This document shows, piece by piece, positions 35,282 to 62,286 of a DNA stretch of 64,000 nucleotides. Position 1 is the first letter of the stretch. Every line of letters begins with the position of its first letter. Under the pieces are notes generated by a model. The model was not told where the DNA came from. It did not search any database and saw only the letters and a program-made list of their open reading frames with translations. Source of the stretch: Verrucomicrobiales bacterium (GTDB lineage: Bacteria > Verrucomicrobiota > Verrucomicrobiia > Verrucomicrobiales > DEV007); NCBI GenBank assembly GCA_029213195.1, contig JARGNI010000001.1:186001-250000 (forward strand), in the 5' to 3' direction. A program made the position numbers and the translations under genes.

Positions 35282-35595
35282 GAGGGACATCGTCCCCGAT
35301 GTCCAAGGGTGGAAGGGAATACGTGGTGCCCAGGCCGAGGCAGCGGACCACGAGGACGTGGTCCCTCCGGCGGGAAAGGGAGGGACACCGTCCCTGATGT
35401 CCGAGGGTGGAAGGGAATACGTGGTGCCCAGACCGAGGCAGCGAACCACGAGGACGTGGTCCCTCCGGCAGAAAGGGAGGGACATCGTCCCCGATGTCCA
35501 AGGGTGGAAGGGAATACGTGGTGCCCAGGCCGAGGCAGCGGACCACGAGGACGTGGTCCCTCCGCAGAAAGGGAGGGACATCGTCCCCGATGTCC
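35281..35595 (+). repeat. REPIN-like tandem array, left side of the RAYT gene
   Basis: Three full units (35281-35368, 35379-35466, 35476-35563) and one left half-unit (35572-35595), with period 97-98. Each unit is an outer inverted repeat GGAGGGAC...GTCCCTCC enclosing two hairpins: GGACATCG-TCCC-CGATGTCC, and GGACCACG-AGGA-CGTGGTCC, which has a matching tetraloop layout. About 40 nt separate the two hairpins. This is REP-doublet (REPIN) structure. The array starts within the guaA stop codon and ends 4 nt before the RAYT stop. Confidence 0.85.
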
Positions 35596-35598
35596 GGA

Positions 35599-36081
35599 TT
35601 ATCGATACCAATTCAGAAAATAGACTTCTCCTTGAAGCGGCCAATCGCCAGCGTTCTCAATGAGACCGTGACGAACGGGATTGTTCCTGACGTAGGCGAC
35701 TTTTTCCGCATAGGAGTCAGAACTGCGCAGCAACCGGTCCCAGGCATGACGTTGCCACAAAGGATTGTCAGCGGTATGCCCAAGAGAGCGACTCACGATC
35801 CGCTTCCAGTAGCGAATCCATTGACGAACCGAGGACGGATTTGAAACACCGGGGGAGGCGAAGAAATGCAAGTGGTCGGGGAGAATCGTGTAGTAACCAG
35901 GTCTCCAATCGGTCGCCTTTTCCCATGAATCGAGGAGAGCTTGGTGAAATGACTCGTTGGCAAAGAGGTGTTTCCGCTGAAATGCGCAAACGGTAACGAA
36001 AACGATCTGTGGCTGACCCGTTTCTGGGCTTCGGTTCAGGACGTAGGGGCTCTTTCGACTCGGAAGAGAAAAAGTGCTCAT
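35599..36081 (-). CDS. REP-associated tyrosine transposase (RAYT, IS200-like Y1 family)
   Basis: 160 residues from the ATG at 36081. A longer reading of the frame to 36369 would add 96 residues encoded by the REPIN array, so it is rejected. The fold is a Y1 HUH transposase: HxH motif HLH at about residues 70-72 (LPDHLHFFASPG), catalytic Tyr about 130 (EKVAYVRNNPVRHGLI), and the family ending W-P-x-x-G-E. RAYTs nick and join single-stranded REP hairpins and are normally domesticated single-copy genes flanked by their REPs. This copy is flanked on both sides by such repeats. It lies alone between guaA and secDF. The gene looks intact. Confidence 0.85.
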   Translation of the reverse strand: MSTFSLPSRKSPYVLNRSPETGQPQIVFVTVCAFQRKHLFANESFHQALLDSWEKATDWRPGYYTILPDHLHFFASPGVSNPSSVRQWIRYWKRIVSRSLGHTADNPLWQRHAWDRLLRSSDSYAEKVAYVRNNPVRHGLIENAGDWPLQGEVYFLNWYR

Positions 36082-36128
36082 GTGAACATATTTTCGGTTT
36101 TGCGGAGCAGAAAAACAAGTCAAAAAGT

Positions 36129-36409
36129 GGAGGGACATCGTCCCCGATGTTCGGAGAGTGGAAAGGGATACGCCGGGCCCAAATCGAAAAGCGGACCACG
36201 AGGACGTGGTCCCTCCGGCAGAAAGGAGGGACATCGTCCCCGATATCCGAGGGTGGAAAAGGATACGCCGGGCCCAAACCGAAAAGCGGACCACGAGGAC
36301 GCGGTCCCTCCGGCAGGAAGGGAGGGACATCGTCCCCGATGTCCGACGATTGGGGGAAAAGTGAGCCAACCGATCCAGACCGAAAAGCGGACCACGAGGA
36401 CGCGGTCCG
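36129..36409 (+). repeat. REPIN-like tandem array, right side of the RAYT gene
   Basis: Three units (36129-36216, 36225-36311, 36321-36409) with the same outer GGAGGGAC/GTCCCTCC arms and double hairpins as the left array. The inter-hairpin spacer differs by side: right units carry GGATACGCCGGGCCCAAA, left units GAATACGTGGTGCCCAG. Compensatory or drift changes appear (CGTGGTCC to CGCGGTCC), and the last unit has a diverged spacer and lacks the outer CTCC. It ends 6 nt before the secDF stop. Confidence 0.85.
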
Positions 36410-36415
36410 ATCGCT

Positions 36416-39022
36416 CTACGCCTGCTGCGGGCCGCCCATGGCTTCGATCTTGGATTGCTCGGTGTCGAGAACCTCGCGACGAAGATTGGTTCCAGATCTG
36501 CGAGCCCACCAGAGAACGATTGGGGCAGCGATGAAAATCGAGGAGTAGGTTCCGATCATGACTCCGACAATCAGGGTGAGAGCGAAGTTCCGCAGTCCCG
36601 GGCCTCCGAAGAGGAAGAGGACGATCACGGTGATCAAGGTCGTCACACTGGTGAGCAAGGTCCGGGCAAGGGTCTTGTTCAGTGCATAGTTCATGATGTC
36701 TTTGACATCTCCTCGCTTCGTGGCAAGGCCCTCTCGAACCCGGTCGAAGACAACAATGGTATCGTTGATCGAGTAGCCAGCAATAGTCAGAAAGGCACCC
36801 ACGGTGATAAGAGTGAACTCCTGGCCCAGTAGTGTCGTGATCCCGGCCACGACAATAAGATCGTGGAAAAGGGCGGCAATCGCACCGAGGGCAAAGGCAA
36901 ACTCGAACCGGATCGTGACATAGATCAGGATCGCACCGATACCGATGAGGAGGGCGATGCCAGAGGAAATGAGCATGGATTTGCCGACTGCAGAACCGAC
37001 GGAACTGACCGTAGTGTCTTTCAGCTCGACCCCGAGATCTTTCTCAATTTCAGCCTCGATCTGTTGGGCGGTGTTGTCGGGAGAGCGAATCAGGAAAAAC
37101 TCGCCGGGAGCTCCGACCGGACGCTGCACCTGAACGAGTGGAGTTCCTCCGAGATCGAGGTCGGCGAGGGATTCGTTGATGTTCTCCTTGGTAAGCCCGT
37201 CCGTGGTTTGAATAGTGAGAGAGTCACCGCCCTTGAGCTCGACACCACGCGGATCCATCGAGGGAACGATGATGAGCGAGGCAACGAGAGCGACAATCGA
37301 GGCGATGAGGCAAATCTTGCGCTTTCCGAGGAAGTCGATCACCTGGTCAGGCACGAGATTCATGAAGCTGAGCTTCCTGACGAGGTTGAGCTCGAGTCCC
37401 CAGCTGAAGCAGACTCTTGTCACCAGCAGCGAACAGAACAGGGTCGCGAAAATACCAATGATGAGAGTGATCGCGAAGCCCTTGACCGTTCCCGCAGCGA
37501 CGGCATAGAGGATGATCGCAGTGATCAGTGTCGTGATGTTGGCGTCGATGATCGCGGAGAAGGCTTTCTCATACGCCGTATCGATGGCAGGCTTGAGCGA
37601 CTTGCCGGCCGCCAATTCCTCTCGCAATCGTTCGTAGATGAGTACGTTGGCATCGATCGCGACACCGATCGTGAGAATGATTCCAGCGATACCAGGCAGT
37701 GTCAGGGTGAACTGGAAGAGAGACATCGCTCCGAAGATGATCGCAATACTGAGGCAGAGGCCGATGAGGGCGAGGATTCCGGCAAAGCGGTAGTAGATCA
37801 GGATGAAGAGCAACGTCAGGGCGAGACCGGCGACACCGGCGTAGATGCCCTGATTGACCGTGGCCTGTCCCATCGTCGGAGTGATGAAGTTCGAATACTC
37901 GATCTCGATGGGGTTTTTGAGGGGGTTCTCCAGTGCCGAGGCGAGCTGGAGTGCCTCGTCTTGCGAGAAGTCTCCGGTGATCGAAAACTGGCTTGTAAGA
38001 ACATCCTGAATGACGGGGGAGGAAAGGATGACGTCATCCATGATAATTGCCATGGGCTGCTTGATGTTCTCCGCAGAGAGAGGGCCCATGATCTTGGCTC
38101 CGTCGCCGGTCAAATCGACGGAAATGGAGTGTCCCGATTGACCATAGAAGTATCCTGCCTTGTTGACGTATTCCCCTTCCATGTCGCGCTTGATCTTGAC
38201 GAGACCGTAGCGGGTAGGGAGCTTGTTGCCGTCATCGTCGAAGCTTTCCTTGTAGGGGAGCGCCTCGTAGCCCGGAACGACATCGGCTCCTCCGGCGACC
38301 CGGCTGGCAAGTCCCATGCTCTGGGGGTGGAGAATGGAGAATTCGAGACGGGCGACCTGCTCGAGCGTTTCCTCGATTTCCTTGAGGGTCTCTTCCCCGA
38401 CTCCAGGCATCTGGAGGAAGATCCCGTCTTCACCGGAAGGAGCGAGAATGACCTCACCGGTTCCCAGCTTGTTGAGTCGTCCTTCGAGAACCTGGATTGC
38501 CTGCTGCTGAGCCGCTTCGCTGACTTCCTGCCCAGGGTTCGGAATGATACGGATCTCCATCGAAACACCACCTTGGAGCTCGATTCCCTCCTTCATTCCC
38601 ACGGTTGAATAGAGCCAGACGCAGAGGGCTCCCACGAAGACCGTGAGGATTGATCCCACGATGCGCTTCCGTCGGGCCGTTTCCGTGGCGAAGTAGTAGA
38701 TAAAGAGTGCCAGCAGGCCAAGTCCAAGGAGGAAGACCATCTGGGAGGAAACCGCATTGCTGGCGGTTTCGATGACGTCGGCGACTCCACTGGTGGCATC
38801 GAGCGCGGCGTCAGCGGCCTCCGGCGTTTCGGCGGCTCCTTCAGCAGCACCCGTCTTGGCATTGAGAAGCGCATCGACAGCGGCATCTACCGCTTCCTGT
38901 GTTTCGGCCGAAACTTCGGCGGAAATGGGAGCGGCATCAGCGGCGGGTTCGGTGGTGGCTGTAGATTCTGCGGGAGTGGCAGGAGCATCAGCGGCGGGGG
39001 TCTCTGCGTCTTGAGCTTGCAT
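36416..39022 (-). CDS. secDF: Protein translocase SecD/SecF fusion
   Basis: 868 residues: SecD (about 120-560) fused to SecF (about 563-868). It uses proton motive force to help pull proteins through SecYEG. SecD shows the periplasmic P1 region after IELQGGVSMEI and the TM motif GVAIDANVLIYERLREEL. SecF shows VELKGGDSL and GYSINDTIVVFDRVREGL. Unusual is the N terminus: about 92 Ala/Glu/Thr/Pro-rich acidic residues, then an extra hydrophobic helix (about 95-111) and a basic loop (ETARRKR) before the canonical SecD TM1 (about 121-139). Order tgt-yajC-secDF is the classical operon. No clear Shine-Dalgarno precedes the ATG. Confidence 0.96.
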   Translation of the reverse strand: MQAQDAETPAADAPATPAESTATTEPAADAAPISAEVSAETQEAVDAAVDALLNAKTGAAEGAAETPEAADAALDATSGVADVIETASNAVSSQMVFLLGLGLLALFIYYFATETARRKRIVGSILTVFVGALCVWLYSTVGMKEGIELQGGVSMEIRIIPNPGQEVSEAAQQQAIQVLEGRLNKLGTGEVILAPSGEDGIFLQMPGVGEETLKEIEETLEQVARLEFSILHPQSMGLASRVAGGADVVPGYEALPYKESFDDDGNKLPTRYGLVKIKRDMEGEYVNKAGYFYGQSGHSISVDLTGDGAKIMGPLSAENIKQPMAIIMDDVILSSPVIQDVLTSQFSITGDFSQDEALQLASALENPLKNPIEIEYSNFITPTMGQATVNQGIYAGVAGLALTLLFILIYYRFAGILALIGLCLSIAIIFGAMSLFQFTLTLPGIAGIILTIGVAIDANVLIYERLREELAAGKSLKPAIDTAYEKAFSAIIDANITTLITAIILYAVAAGTVKGFAITLIIGIFATLFCSLLVTRVCFSWGLELNLVRKLSFMNLVPDQVIDFLGKRKICLIASIVALVASLIIVPSMDPRGVELKGGDSLTIQTTDGLTKENINESLADLDLGGTPLVQVQRPVGAPGEFFLIRSPDNTAQQIEAEIEKDLGVELKDTTVSSVGSAVGKSMLISSGIALLIGIGAILIYVTIRFEFAFALGAIAALFHDLIVVAGITTLLGQEFTLITVGAFLTIAGYSINDTIVVFDRVREGLATKRGDVKDIMNYALNKTLARTLLTSVTTLITVIVLFLFGGPGLRNFALTLIVGVMIGTYSSIFIAAPIVLWWARRSGTNLRREVLDTEQSKIEAMGGPQQA

Positions 39023-39599: not shown

Positions 39600-39625
39600 A
39601 AAAAGACGCCTGACGTTCAGGCGTC
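39600..39625 (-). terminator. Hairpin with T-run overlapping the tgt stop codon
   Basis: On the - strand, GACGCCTGA-ACG-TCAGGCGTC (9-bp perfect stem) is followed by TTTTT, a good intrinsic terminator. The TGA of tgt (39617-39619) lies inside the stem. It sits between tgt and yajC, so it may terminate or attenuate reading into yajC-secDF. A T-run on the other side makes it potentially bidirectional. Confidence 0.75.
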
Positions 39626-40750
39626 GATTTTTTCGCCACGATACTGGCAGATAAAATCTGCCTTAAAATCGGCAAACGTGCCGGCGTCTATAGCACGACG
39701 AGCCTCTTTCATCAAGTGGAGATAAAAAGTGACGTTGTGGAGCGTCAATAGCCGCAAGCCGAGAATTTCGTCGTTTTTGATGAGGTGTCGGAGGTAACCA
39801 CGGGTGAATCCCTCGCAAAGGGGGTGGGTTTGACCGTCGGGTGCGAGCAATTCCTGGCTTTTTTCCCACTGGGCATTCTTCAGATTGATCTTCCCGGTGG
39901 CCGTGTATGCGGTGCCGTTTCTCGCCACGCGAGTGGGAAGGACACAGTCGAACATATCGATCCCCCGGCTGATGAGTTCGAGGAGTTGATCGGGCTGCCC
40001 TAGGCCCATGGCGTAGCGGGGCTTGTTTTCGGGAAGGATCGGGGCCGCAACGTCGACGGCTTTGAGCATTTCTGGCACAGGTTCTCCCACCGACAATCCT
40101 CCGATTGCGTAGCCATCGAAATCGAGATCGACGAGGTCGCGAGCTGCTTTCTCGCGGAGATCGCCGTAGCAGGCACCCTGGACGATGCCGAAATAGTTCT
40201 GTCCGGGAGGGCGATGTTTCTCGATCCAGTCGCGAGCCCGCTCCGCCCAGCGTTGGGTCAAGGCGAGGGAATTGGTTGCGTAGTCCTTCTCGCAGGGATA
40301 GGGCGGGCACTCATCGAGGATCATGCAGATATCGCTCCCGATGGACTGCTGGATTTCGAGGACGGACTCGGGGGTGAGAAAGAGAGGGCTACCGTCGATG
40401 TGACTCTGAAAGCGTACGCCCTCTTCGGAAATTTTTCGAAGCTTCGAGAGCGAGAACACCTGGTAACCGCCGGAATCGGTGAGAATGGGTCGATCCCAGC
40501 GCATGAACTCGTGGAGCCCGCCGAATTCATCGAGGACCTCGGTGCCGGGTCGGAGGTAGAGGTGATAGGTGTTCCCGAGAATGATTCGACAGTCGAGAGC
40601 CGGGTCGATCAGCTCTTGCGGATGGACCGATTTCACGGTGCCGCGGGTCCCGACCGGCATGAAAGTCGGGGTTTCCACTTCTCCATGAGCGAGGCTCATG
40701 CGACCGCGGCGCGCTGCGGTCTGGGAATCGGTTTTGAGAAGGGTAAACAT
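39617..40750 (-). CDS. tgt: tRNA-guanine transglycosylase (queuine tRNA-ribosyltransferase)
   Basis: 377 residues. It exchanges guanine 34 for a queuine precursor in GUN-anticodon tRNAs. Catalytic motifs are ILTDSGGYQVFSL (first Asp), IGGLSVGEP, and MFDCVLPTRVARNGTAYT (second Asp). The C-terminal zinc site, normally CxCxxC plus a His, is altered: the aligned segment reads QTHPLC then EGFTRGYLRHL, so Cys1 is Gln and Cys2 is His, while Cys3 and the later LHN His remain. The DNA supports this reading. It is first in the tgt-yajC-secDF cluster, and its stop lies in a terminator stem. Confidence 0.95.
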   Translation of the reverse strand: MFTLLKTDSQTAARRGRMSLAHGEVETPTFMPVGTRGTVKSVHPQELIDPALDCRIILGNTYHLYLRPGTEVLDEFGGLHEFMRWDRPILTDSGGYQVFSLSKLRKISEEGVRFQSHIDGSPLFLTPESVLEIQQSIGSDICMILDECPPYPCEKDYATNSLALTQRWAERARDWIEKHRPPGQNYFGIVQGACYGDLREKAARDLVDLDFDGYAIGGLSVGEPVPEMLKAVDVAAPILPENKPRYAMGLGQPDQLLELISRGIDMFDCVLPTRVARNGTAYTATGKINLKNAQWEKSQELLAPDGQTHPLCEGFTRGYLRHLIKNDEILGLRLLTLHNVTFYLHLMKEARRAIDAGTFADFKADFICQYRGEKIDA

Positions 40751-40890: not shown

Positions 40891-42687
40891 ATGTCATCCG
40901 CGCCAACGAATCACGCCGGGCTGCTCGCCTGGGTCGAAGAAATCCGGGAACTCTGTCAGCCGCGCGACGTGGTCTGGTGCGATGGGAGCGACGAGGAGTG
41001 GCACCGGCTTTGTGGGGAACTGGTCGATGCGGGGACTTTCCTGAAGCTCAATCCGGAGAAACGTCCCGACAGTTATCTTGCCTGGTCGGATCCGAAAGAC
41101 GTGGCACGGGTCGAGGATCGCACCTTTATTTGCAGCCGTCGCCAGTCCGATTCTGGCCCAACCAATCGATGGGTCGCGCCAGCGGAGATGAGAGAGACGC
41201 TCGGCGATCTCTTTCGCGGCTCGATGTGGCGAAGAACGATGTATGTCATCCCTTTCTGCATGGGGCCGATCGACTCGGATATGGCGATCTTCGGCGTTGA
41301 GATTACCGATTCTGCCTATGTCGCGGTAAACATGAAGTTGATGACGAGAATGGGGCAGCCCGTTCTCGACAAGCTCGGCGAGAATGGGGACTTCGTCCCC
41401 TGTGTCCACTCGGTCGGCGCCCCTCTGATGCCCGACGAGGAGGATGTGCCTTGGCCGTGCAACGAGGAGAAATACATCGTGCACTTTCCTGAAGATCGGG
41501 AGATCTGGTCGTATGGCAGTGGCTACGGGGGGAACGCTCTCCTCGGGAAAAAATGCCTCGCTCTCCGTATCGCGAGCGTCATGGCGCGGGACGACGGCTG
41601 GATGGCCGAGCACATGCTCATCAGCGGAGTGGAAAACCCCGACGGCGAAAAACGGTATGTCGCCGCGGCGTTTCCCAGTGCCTGCGGAAAGACGAACTTT
41701 GCCATGCTCGTACCTCCCAAGGTCTACCGCGAGAAAGGGTGGAAGGTCACGACGGTGGGAGACGATATCGCCTGGCTCAAACCGGATGAGAATGGAAAGC
41801 TCCGTGCGATCAATCCCGAGGCCGGTTACTTTGGCGTCGCCCCCGGTACATCCGAGGATTCGAATCCCAATGCGATGGCCTCACTGAGAGGCAACACGAT
41901 TTTTACCAACGTCGCTCTGACCGAGGATGGCGATGTCTGGTGGGAGGGGATGACGAAAGAACCTCCCGCAAAGCTTACAGACTGGAAGGGCAATCCCTGG
42001 ACTCCGGAATCCGAGACGCCTGCTGCGCATCCCAATTCGCGATTTACCGCTCCCGCTTCCCAATGTCCTGCGATCGATCCGGACTGGGAGAATCCGAGAG
42101 GAGTGCCCATCGATGCGATCATCTTCGGAGGGCGCCGTGCCACGACGATGCCGCTGGTGTTTCAGGCTTTCAACTGGGTCCATGGAGTCTTCCTCGGCGC
42201 CAATCTCGGCTCCGAGATGACCGCTGCGGCGGAGGGCGCGATCGGGAAGATCCGTCATGACCCTTTCGCGATGCTGCCGTTCTGCGGTTACAACATGGGC
42301 GACTACTTCGCGCACTGGCTCGAGATGAGAAAGAAAATTGGAGATCTGCCTCGAATCTTTCACGTGAACTGGTTTCGAAAGGGTGCCGATGGAAAGTTTC
42401 TCTGGCCAGGATTTGGAGAAAATATGCGAGTCCTCGAGTGGATTTTTGATCGGGTTCGTGGACAGGGCAGGGGGCACGAGGCCGAGCTCGGATGGGTGCC
42501 GCATTACGACGAATTGAATTTCGAGGGACTCGATTTTTCGGAGGAGCAGTTCGAGCAGTTGATGTCGGTGAGTCCCGAAGAGTTCCGAGGGGAATTGCTT
42601 TCGGAAGCGGATCTCTATCTCGACCTCTATGATCACCTTCCCAAGGAGCTGATCTTTCAGCGGGAGCTTCTTGCAGGGAGAATGTAG
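40891..42687 (+). CDS. pckG: Phosphoenolpyruvate carboxykinase (GTP)
   Basis: 598 residues, typical of the GTP-dependent family. It interconverts oxaloacetate and PEP using GTP and a divalent metal, for gluconeogenesis. Motifs: kinase-1a loop [12 protein letters not shown], kinase-2 GDDIAWLKP, substrate loop around [12 protein letters not shown], and the guanine-binding FNWVHGVF. The start ATG at 40891 gives [17 protein letters not shown], which fits the family. An AGG lies about 9 nt upstream. It is transcribed divergently from tgt (140 nt between). Confidence 0.96.
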
Positions 42688-62040: not shown

Positions 62041-62286
62041 ATGAAAGCGGATATCCACCCGGAATACAACGAAGCAACGATCCAGTGCACGTGTGGCAAT
62101 GTGATCCAGACGAGATCGACGGTCCAGGATCTCCACATCGGTATCTGCTCTGCATGCCACCCATTCTTTACGGGCGAGCAGCGTTTCGTCGATACTGCGG
62201 GTCGAGTCGACAAGTTCCAGAAGCGTTTCGGTGAGTCCGGCGGAGCTGGAAAGCGTCGCAAGAAGCCCAAGCTTTCCGATCTCTAG
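62041..62286 (+). CDS. rpmE: 50S ribosomal protein L31
   Basis: 81 residues, the zinc-binding (C+) form: [20 protein letters not shown] then [20 protein letters not shown], with four Cys as CxC...CxxC. The family signature HPFFTG..+..DT.GRV.KF is complete. A Lys/Arg-rich C-terminal tail ([12 protein letters not shown]) follows. It precedes prfA by 114 nt, the common rpmE-prfA arrangement. Confidence 0.97.

Follow-up and report, generated by a model that had tools for sequence, protein, structure and literature searches.

Degenerate zinc sites in the tRNA-guanine transglycosylases of Verrucomicrobiota

Can tRNA-guanine transglycosylase (Tgt) do without its zinc site? Passages of two papers present this site as a hallmark of the enzyme (PMC6165067, PMC3660597), and part of another says that TGT cannot be active without zinc (PMC9508795). 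The question is raised by the window, by which we mean the whole stretch of 64,000 nucleotides that we analyzed: it encodes a protein that is Tgt by every other test made, and whose zinc motif is degenerate. Chong 1995 reportedly treated E. coli TGT as a zinc enzyme and sought the ligands by mutagenesis. We found no description of a zinc-less Tgt in the open-licence literature, which was the scope of our search. Below, "zinc-type" Tgts have the CxCxxC motif and "zinc-less" Tgts do not.

The tgt gene and its zinc motif

The protein scores 486.5 bits against the TIGR00430 profile (the curated cut-off is 306.75), and its best sequence match in the PDB is 10fb_A. It is like the TGT of Z. mobilis (such as 1PUD) along its full length, with the same TIM-barrel fold and 46-48% identity in the fold alignment. 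The AlphaFold2 model has a mean pLDDT of 90.7 (88-96 over residues 301-350, the zinc subdomain), and it has the TIM-barrel fold of the solved TGTs, with a Foldseek TM of 0.94 to 1ozm and an rmsd of 1.5-1.7 Å to the best chains from Z. mobilis. Superposing this predicted structure tells us no more than that the sequence is compatible with the fold. AlphaFold2 leaves metals out of its models, which makes this one weak evidence as to whether zinc is bound.

The two frames downstream of tgt are, we presume by inspection, YajC-like and SecDF-like (Table 1); tgt-yajC-secDF is an ordinary gene order. Beyond the SecDF-like gene lies an intergenic array of ~95-base units with palindromic cores, which possibly belong to a genome-wide repeat family.

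Table 1. Features of the window, and queuosine genes elsewhere in its genome
Feature	Position	Strand	Basis
tgt, tRNA-guanine(34) transglycosylase, 377 aa, zinc site degenerate	39617..40750	-	ORF; TIGR00430; PF01702; PDB sequence and fold matches
Degenerate zinc motif Q307-T-H309-P-L-C312 instead of CxCxxC	39815..39832	-	DNA read; alignment; genus sequences
Q307 codon	39830-39832		DNA read
H309 codon	39824-39826		DNA read
C312 codon	39815-39817		DNA read
His338 codon (LHN), counterpart of the fourth zinc ligand of zinc-type Tgt	39737..39739	-	DNA; alignment; 28/28 genus sequences
Neighbor downstream of tgt, 123 aa	39196..39567	-	ORF
Neighbor downstream of tgt, 868 aa	36416..39022	-	ORF
598-aa frame upstream of tgt	40891-42687	opposite to tgt	ORF
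Repeat array	35501-36422		
Repeat array, 2.9 copies, 87% match	36129-36408		
Repeat array, more copies	near 35501-35609		
Zinc-type L31	about 62041-62232		
QueA	C36:30508-31488		
QueH	C79:33424-33948		

The initial annotation had reported Q-T-H-P-L-C where Tgt has CxCxxC, with the third Cys and the His of a downstream LHN retained. Both observations are borne out: the DNA reads G306-Q307-T308-H309-P310-L311-C312, and in a MAFFT alignment, the three zinc Cys of zinc-type Tgt line up with Q307, H309, and C312, and the zinc His with H338. The three-Cys-one-His ligand set of zinc-type Tgt is thus replaced by Q307/H309/C312/H338. Put another way, the protein differs from the Z. mobilis enzyme and other bacterial Tgts in that two of the three zinc Cys have become Gln and His.

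The motif is fixed in the genus. Among 33 genomes of the genus, 29 (the window's included) gave a match; 28 of these sequences cover the motif, and the remaining one covers residues 1-108 only. All 28 have xTHPLC and His338. Position 307 is E in 16 of them, Q in 3, K in 3, S in 3, A in 2, and G in 1. (The full-length sequences from the genus are 76-91% identical.)

We also asked if another cluster of cysteines might serve as the zinc site. The window's Tgt has Cys at positions 54, 142, 148, 153, 194, 269, 312, and 368, and these form no cluster. Only Cys148 and Cys269 occur in nearly all of the sequences, and they are just as widespread in zinc-type Tgt, so we rejected this idea.

Losses of the motif in Verrucomicrobiota and Bacteroidota

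Across 251 readable single-domain Tgts from Verrucomicrobiota, 144 are zinc-less and 107 have CxCxxC, in a sample in which the window's genus is over-represented (28 sequences), the genomes were a selection from larger groups, and a subset of the genomes with matches was read. All readable sequences are zinc-less in families f2 (28/28), f3 (33/33), f4 (6/6), and f6 (18/18), as are both sequences in each of f10, f11, f13, f14, and f69 (one of those from f11, L325, was classed by eye, as the script had left it unclassified). In the window's own family, f1, 48 of 61 sequences are zinc-less, and in f68, 1 of 6. The 48 other sampled families keep CxCxxC in 89 of 89 sequences. (Labels such as Akkermansiaceae-like, for f2, are our presumption, in part from likeness to named contigs L035 and L036.) Of the 80 named genome contigs that best match the window's protein, which are not a random sample and were split into phyla by their titles, 27 are zinc-less: 5 from Verrucomicrobiota, 21 of the 24 with Bacteroidota titles, and the only one from Balneolaceae.

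Decay of the zinc site is graded. Intermediate motifs are found in many groups: SxSxxC in f1g6, DTHPLC in f3 and several f1 genera, TAPSC in f1g3 and f1g13, DTHPTV in f69, SHPHV in f2, and LDNYTC and NYTT in the Opitutales-like families. The Tgts of f2 and of the Opitutales-like families (f4, f6, f10, f11, and f13) are like the window's in that the motif is degenerate and the active site is kept, but they differ in that Cys312 is also lost in 28/28 sequences from f2 and 10/18 from f6. The ligand positions drift. Position 307 can hold D, E, S, T, N, Q, L, M, V, I, or G; position 309 usually has H in Verrucomicrobiales, but N in Opitutales-like families and S or T in Bacteroidota; C, V, L, T, and S are all seen at position 312; and position 338 is Gln in Akkermansia-like sequences. 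In f2g19, which is Akkermansia-like, all four ligand positions have changed (GHPHV, with FQN for LHN) in 3/3 sequences (L206, L275, and L276). A separate oddity is f1g5 (L111, L113, and L114), where CxCxxC is kept and LHN reads LCN, so that the His ligand has become Cys; these Tgts could possibly have a four-Cys site.

How often was the motif lost? Our best tree (173 sequences including Bacteroidota, built with a quick method and with the motif columns left out) has eight zinc-less groups and at least eight changes; only four independent comparisons lie on well-supported branches. The firm part is that losses were separate in Verrucomicrobiales, the Opitutales-like families, f14, and Bacteroidota. 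The LDNYTC motif of the Opitutales-like families is a separate loss on the tree, unlike the window's THP type. The Tgts of Flavobacteria and Sphingobacteria, like the window's, lack CxCxxC and keep the LHN His, but all three Cys are gone, there is no THP, and the tree again makes this a separate loss. We are unsure of the number of losses within Verrucomicrobiales. The AU test does not reject a single THP-type origin there (p 0.14, 52 sequences against 22), nor does it show one; that these sequences have the THP letters in common speaks for one origin.

The f14 sequences (L328 and L329, from genomes G204 and G282) stand apart. These Tgts have no Cys and a branch length of 1.7, and no match to QueA, QueG, or QueH was found in the two genomes. 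They may have another role, or another end product.

Does the C-terminal subdomain still bind metal?

We think that the window encodes a working, single-copy queuosine Tgt that probably no longer binds the structural zinc; both the activity and the absence of the metal are judged from the comparison of sequences. The enzyme would use the usual Asp-nucleophile chemistry to swap guanine-34 of GUN tRNAs for preQ1. The C-terminal subdomain would have given up its zinc and would be held in its fold, the loop included, presumably by protein contacts alone, and Cys312 and His338 would either be left over from the site or serve the structure in another way. After the loss of one or two Cys, the other ligands would have drifted. 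H309, C312, and H338 are each lost in some related zinc-less lineage, with the active-site residues kept there.

The initial annotation had left two options: ligands of Gln/His/Cys/His, or loss of the metal. The second fits the comparison best. The first does not stand as worded, because position 307 varies (E/Q/K/S/A/G) within the genus, so Gln307 is not a conserved ligand. The retained His of LHN says little about zinc, because it is kept in 9/9 aligned sequences from Bacteroidota and Balneolaceae that have none of the three Cys.

The foremost alternative is a remodeled site, in which His309, Cys312, and His338, along with water or residue 307, would still hold zinc or a different metal, at a changed affinity. 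We consider this doubtful. These three residues are invariant in the 28 sequences from the genus, as they would also be if a weaker site with three ligands had survived in it. Also, among the 56 zinc-less sequences from Verrucomicrobiales, H309 is found in 50 and Pro310 in all 56, and residue 307 is often acidic (D in 26 and E in 7). But 9/28 sequences from the genus have K, S, A, or G at position 307, and the Opitutales-like and Bacteroidota sequences have no H309 at all. Moreover, the HP motif persists where Cys312 has become Val or Leu (f2 and f69) and where H338 has become Gln (Akkermansia-like), so His309 is not kept solely together with the other ligands.

Part of one study reports that the zinc subdomain of the Z. 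mobilis enzyme supplies hot-spot residues of the dimer interface, Trp326, Tyr330, and His333 (PMC5395182). By alignment, their counterparts in the window's Tgt are F315, Y319, and H322, which are all invariant in the genus. We also looked for compensating residues that are shared by zinc-less groups. F342 is found in 93/93 zinc-less sequences vs. 36/80 zinc-type sequences, but this is not evidence, because the supported branches of the tree yield no more than 4 independent pairs. For all of the candidates (F342, N292, L346, L257, A350, I260, and N289), 4 or fewer independent comparisons gave no significance, and we dropped them, as the raw enrichments fail once relatedness is counted.

Another explanation is zinc sparing: the zinc-less Tgt might be one of a genome-wide set of zinc-free proteins that was selected in zinc-poor habitats. 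Part of one paper links queuosine genes to zinc limitation (PMC9508795). Zinc-less L36 is found in 9/19 genomes with zinc-less Tgt vs. 2/10 genomes with zinc-type Tgt, although the genomes are related and these counts are not independent, and five genomes (G097, G324, G444, G051, and G083) have only zinc-less L31. On the other side, 10 of the 19 genomes with zinc-less Tgt keep zinc-type L36, and the window's genome and two congeners keep the zinc-type forms of both L31 and L36, so that we rejected genome-wide zinc sparing for the window's genome. We therefore view zinc sparing as unlikely to explain this Tgt; it may contribute elsewhere, and not visibly in the window's genome. (The L31 readings leave out G245, G164, and G195, and a search of G361 for L31 gave no match.) As to the forms themselves, several genomes with zinc-less Tgt have a zinc-less long-form L31 and a zinc-less L36 (L406-L409 and L412), and G139 carries both forms of L31.

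Active site, queuosine genes, and what the losses mean

The claim that the rest of the active site is intact also held up: the catalytic and base-binding residues are identical to those of zinc-type sequences in the alignment. The active-site and core residues 92, 93, 94, 97, 146, 191, 217, 218, 248, 265, 268, 274, and 277 are invariant in the zinc-less sequences from Verrucomicrobiales (56/56), Opitutales-like families (26/26), and Bacteroidota and Balneolaceae (9/9); the two f14 sequences deviate at residue 248. By our own mapping, the catalytic Asp92, Asp146, and Asp268 are present as in the Z. mobilis enzyme. Part of the assignment of roles to catalytic and base-binding residues is our presumption. 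For the rest, passages of PMC3660597 and PMC6165067 describe these roles.

The genomic context is also that of a queuosine enzyme. Like other bacterial Tgts (TIGR00430, PF01702), the window's shares the catalytic Asp and is a single copy that occurs with QueA and QueH. The window's genome has just one match to TIGR00430, and a search of it for a second Tgt found none; a search of it for QueG gave no match. Of 40 genomes tested, 38 (including the window's) have QueA together with QueG or QueH, and the two exceptions are the f14 genomes. QueG is above the cut-off in 22/40 genomes and QueH in 17/40, with both in one (G374), so that QueG and QueH swap patchily within one order.

Some genomes with a zinc-less Tgt (G259, G361, and others) also carry a zinc-type fused Tgt, which the window's genome lacks, and because of this second enzyme they are weaker evidence for a working zinc-less Tgt. 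More broadly, a second, longer Tgt is found in many Verrucomicrobiota (L209-L219, such as L209:1480-3498, with frames of ~575-810 aa), with second matches in G118, G158, G161, G175, G213, and G233 as well. The longer Tgt is zinc-type in 11 of the 11 that we read. The C-terminus of L209, which is the one that we scanned, matches Methyltransf_30 (MnmD-like, PF05430, E = 8.9e-13), so L209 is a predicted fusion of two wobble-base enzymes. We searched the open-licence papers and found none on a Tgt-MnmD fusion.

Could the window's Tgt be a decaying or non-functional pseudo-enzyme, or have been recruited to another function? It lacks residues that E. coli TGT reportedly uses, and the zinc-less f14 Tgts are on a long branch in genomes without matches to QueA, QueG, or QueH. 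Nevertheless, we consider this very improbable: the frames are open and full-length, the active-site residues are kept, identity among full-length sequences from the genus remains high, and QueA with QueG or QueH accompanies Tgt in nearly all of the genomes tested. Finally, an assembly or sequencing error has next to no chance of explaining the motif, since, although the source genome is a draft in 115 contigs, 27/27 other assemblies from the genus that cover the site have the same motif, which completes the 28/28, and related motifs recur across families.

A precedent comes from another enzyme. Part of a study of GluRS reports that one of its domains works with or without zinc (PMC4381286). 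As with Tgt, the same fold occurs with or without the zinc motif across bacteria; the difference is that for GluRS, the dispensability of zinc was tested at the bench.

Overall, we somewhat favor the view that the structural zinc of Tgt was lost again and again, some four to eight times among the sampled lineages, and that the enzyme would be fully active without metal in many Verrucomicrobiota and Bacteroidota. Zinc would then be an ancestral and dispensable staple of the fold. With zinc-less Tgts, the stated need of TGT for zinc can be put to the test, and they bear on the links that have been reported between metal limitation and queuosine. They are also relevant to inhibitor work on the dimer interface, which the zinc subdomain helps to form. 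The families whose only Tgts lack the zinc site are a natural experiment on the role of the metal.
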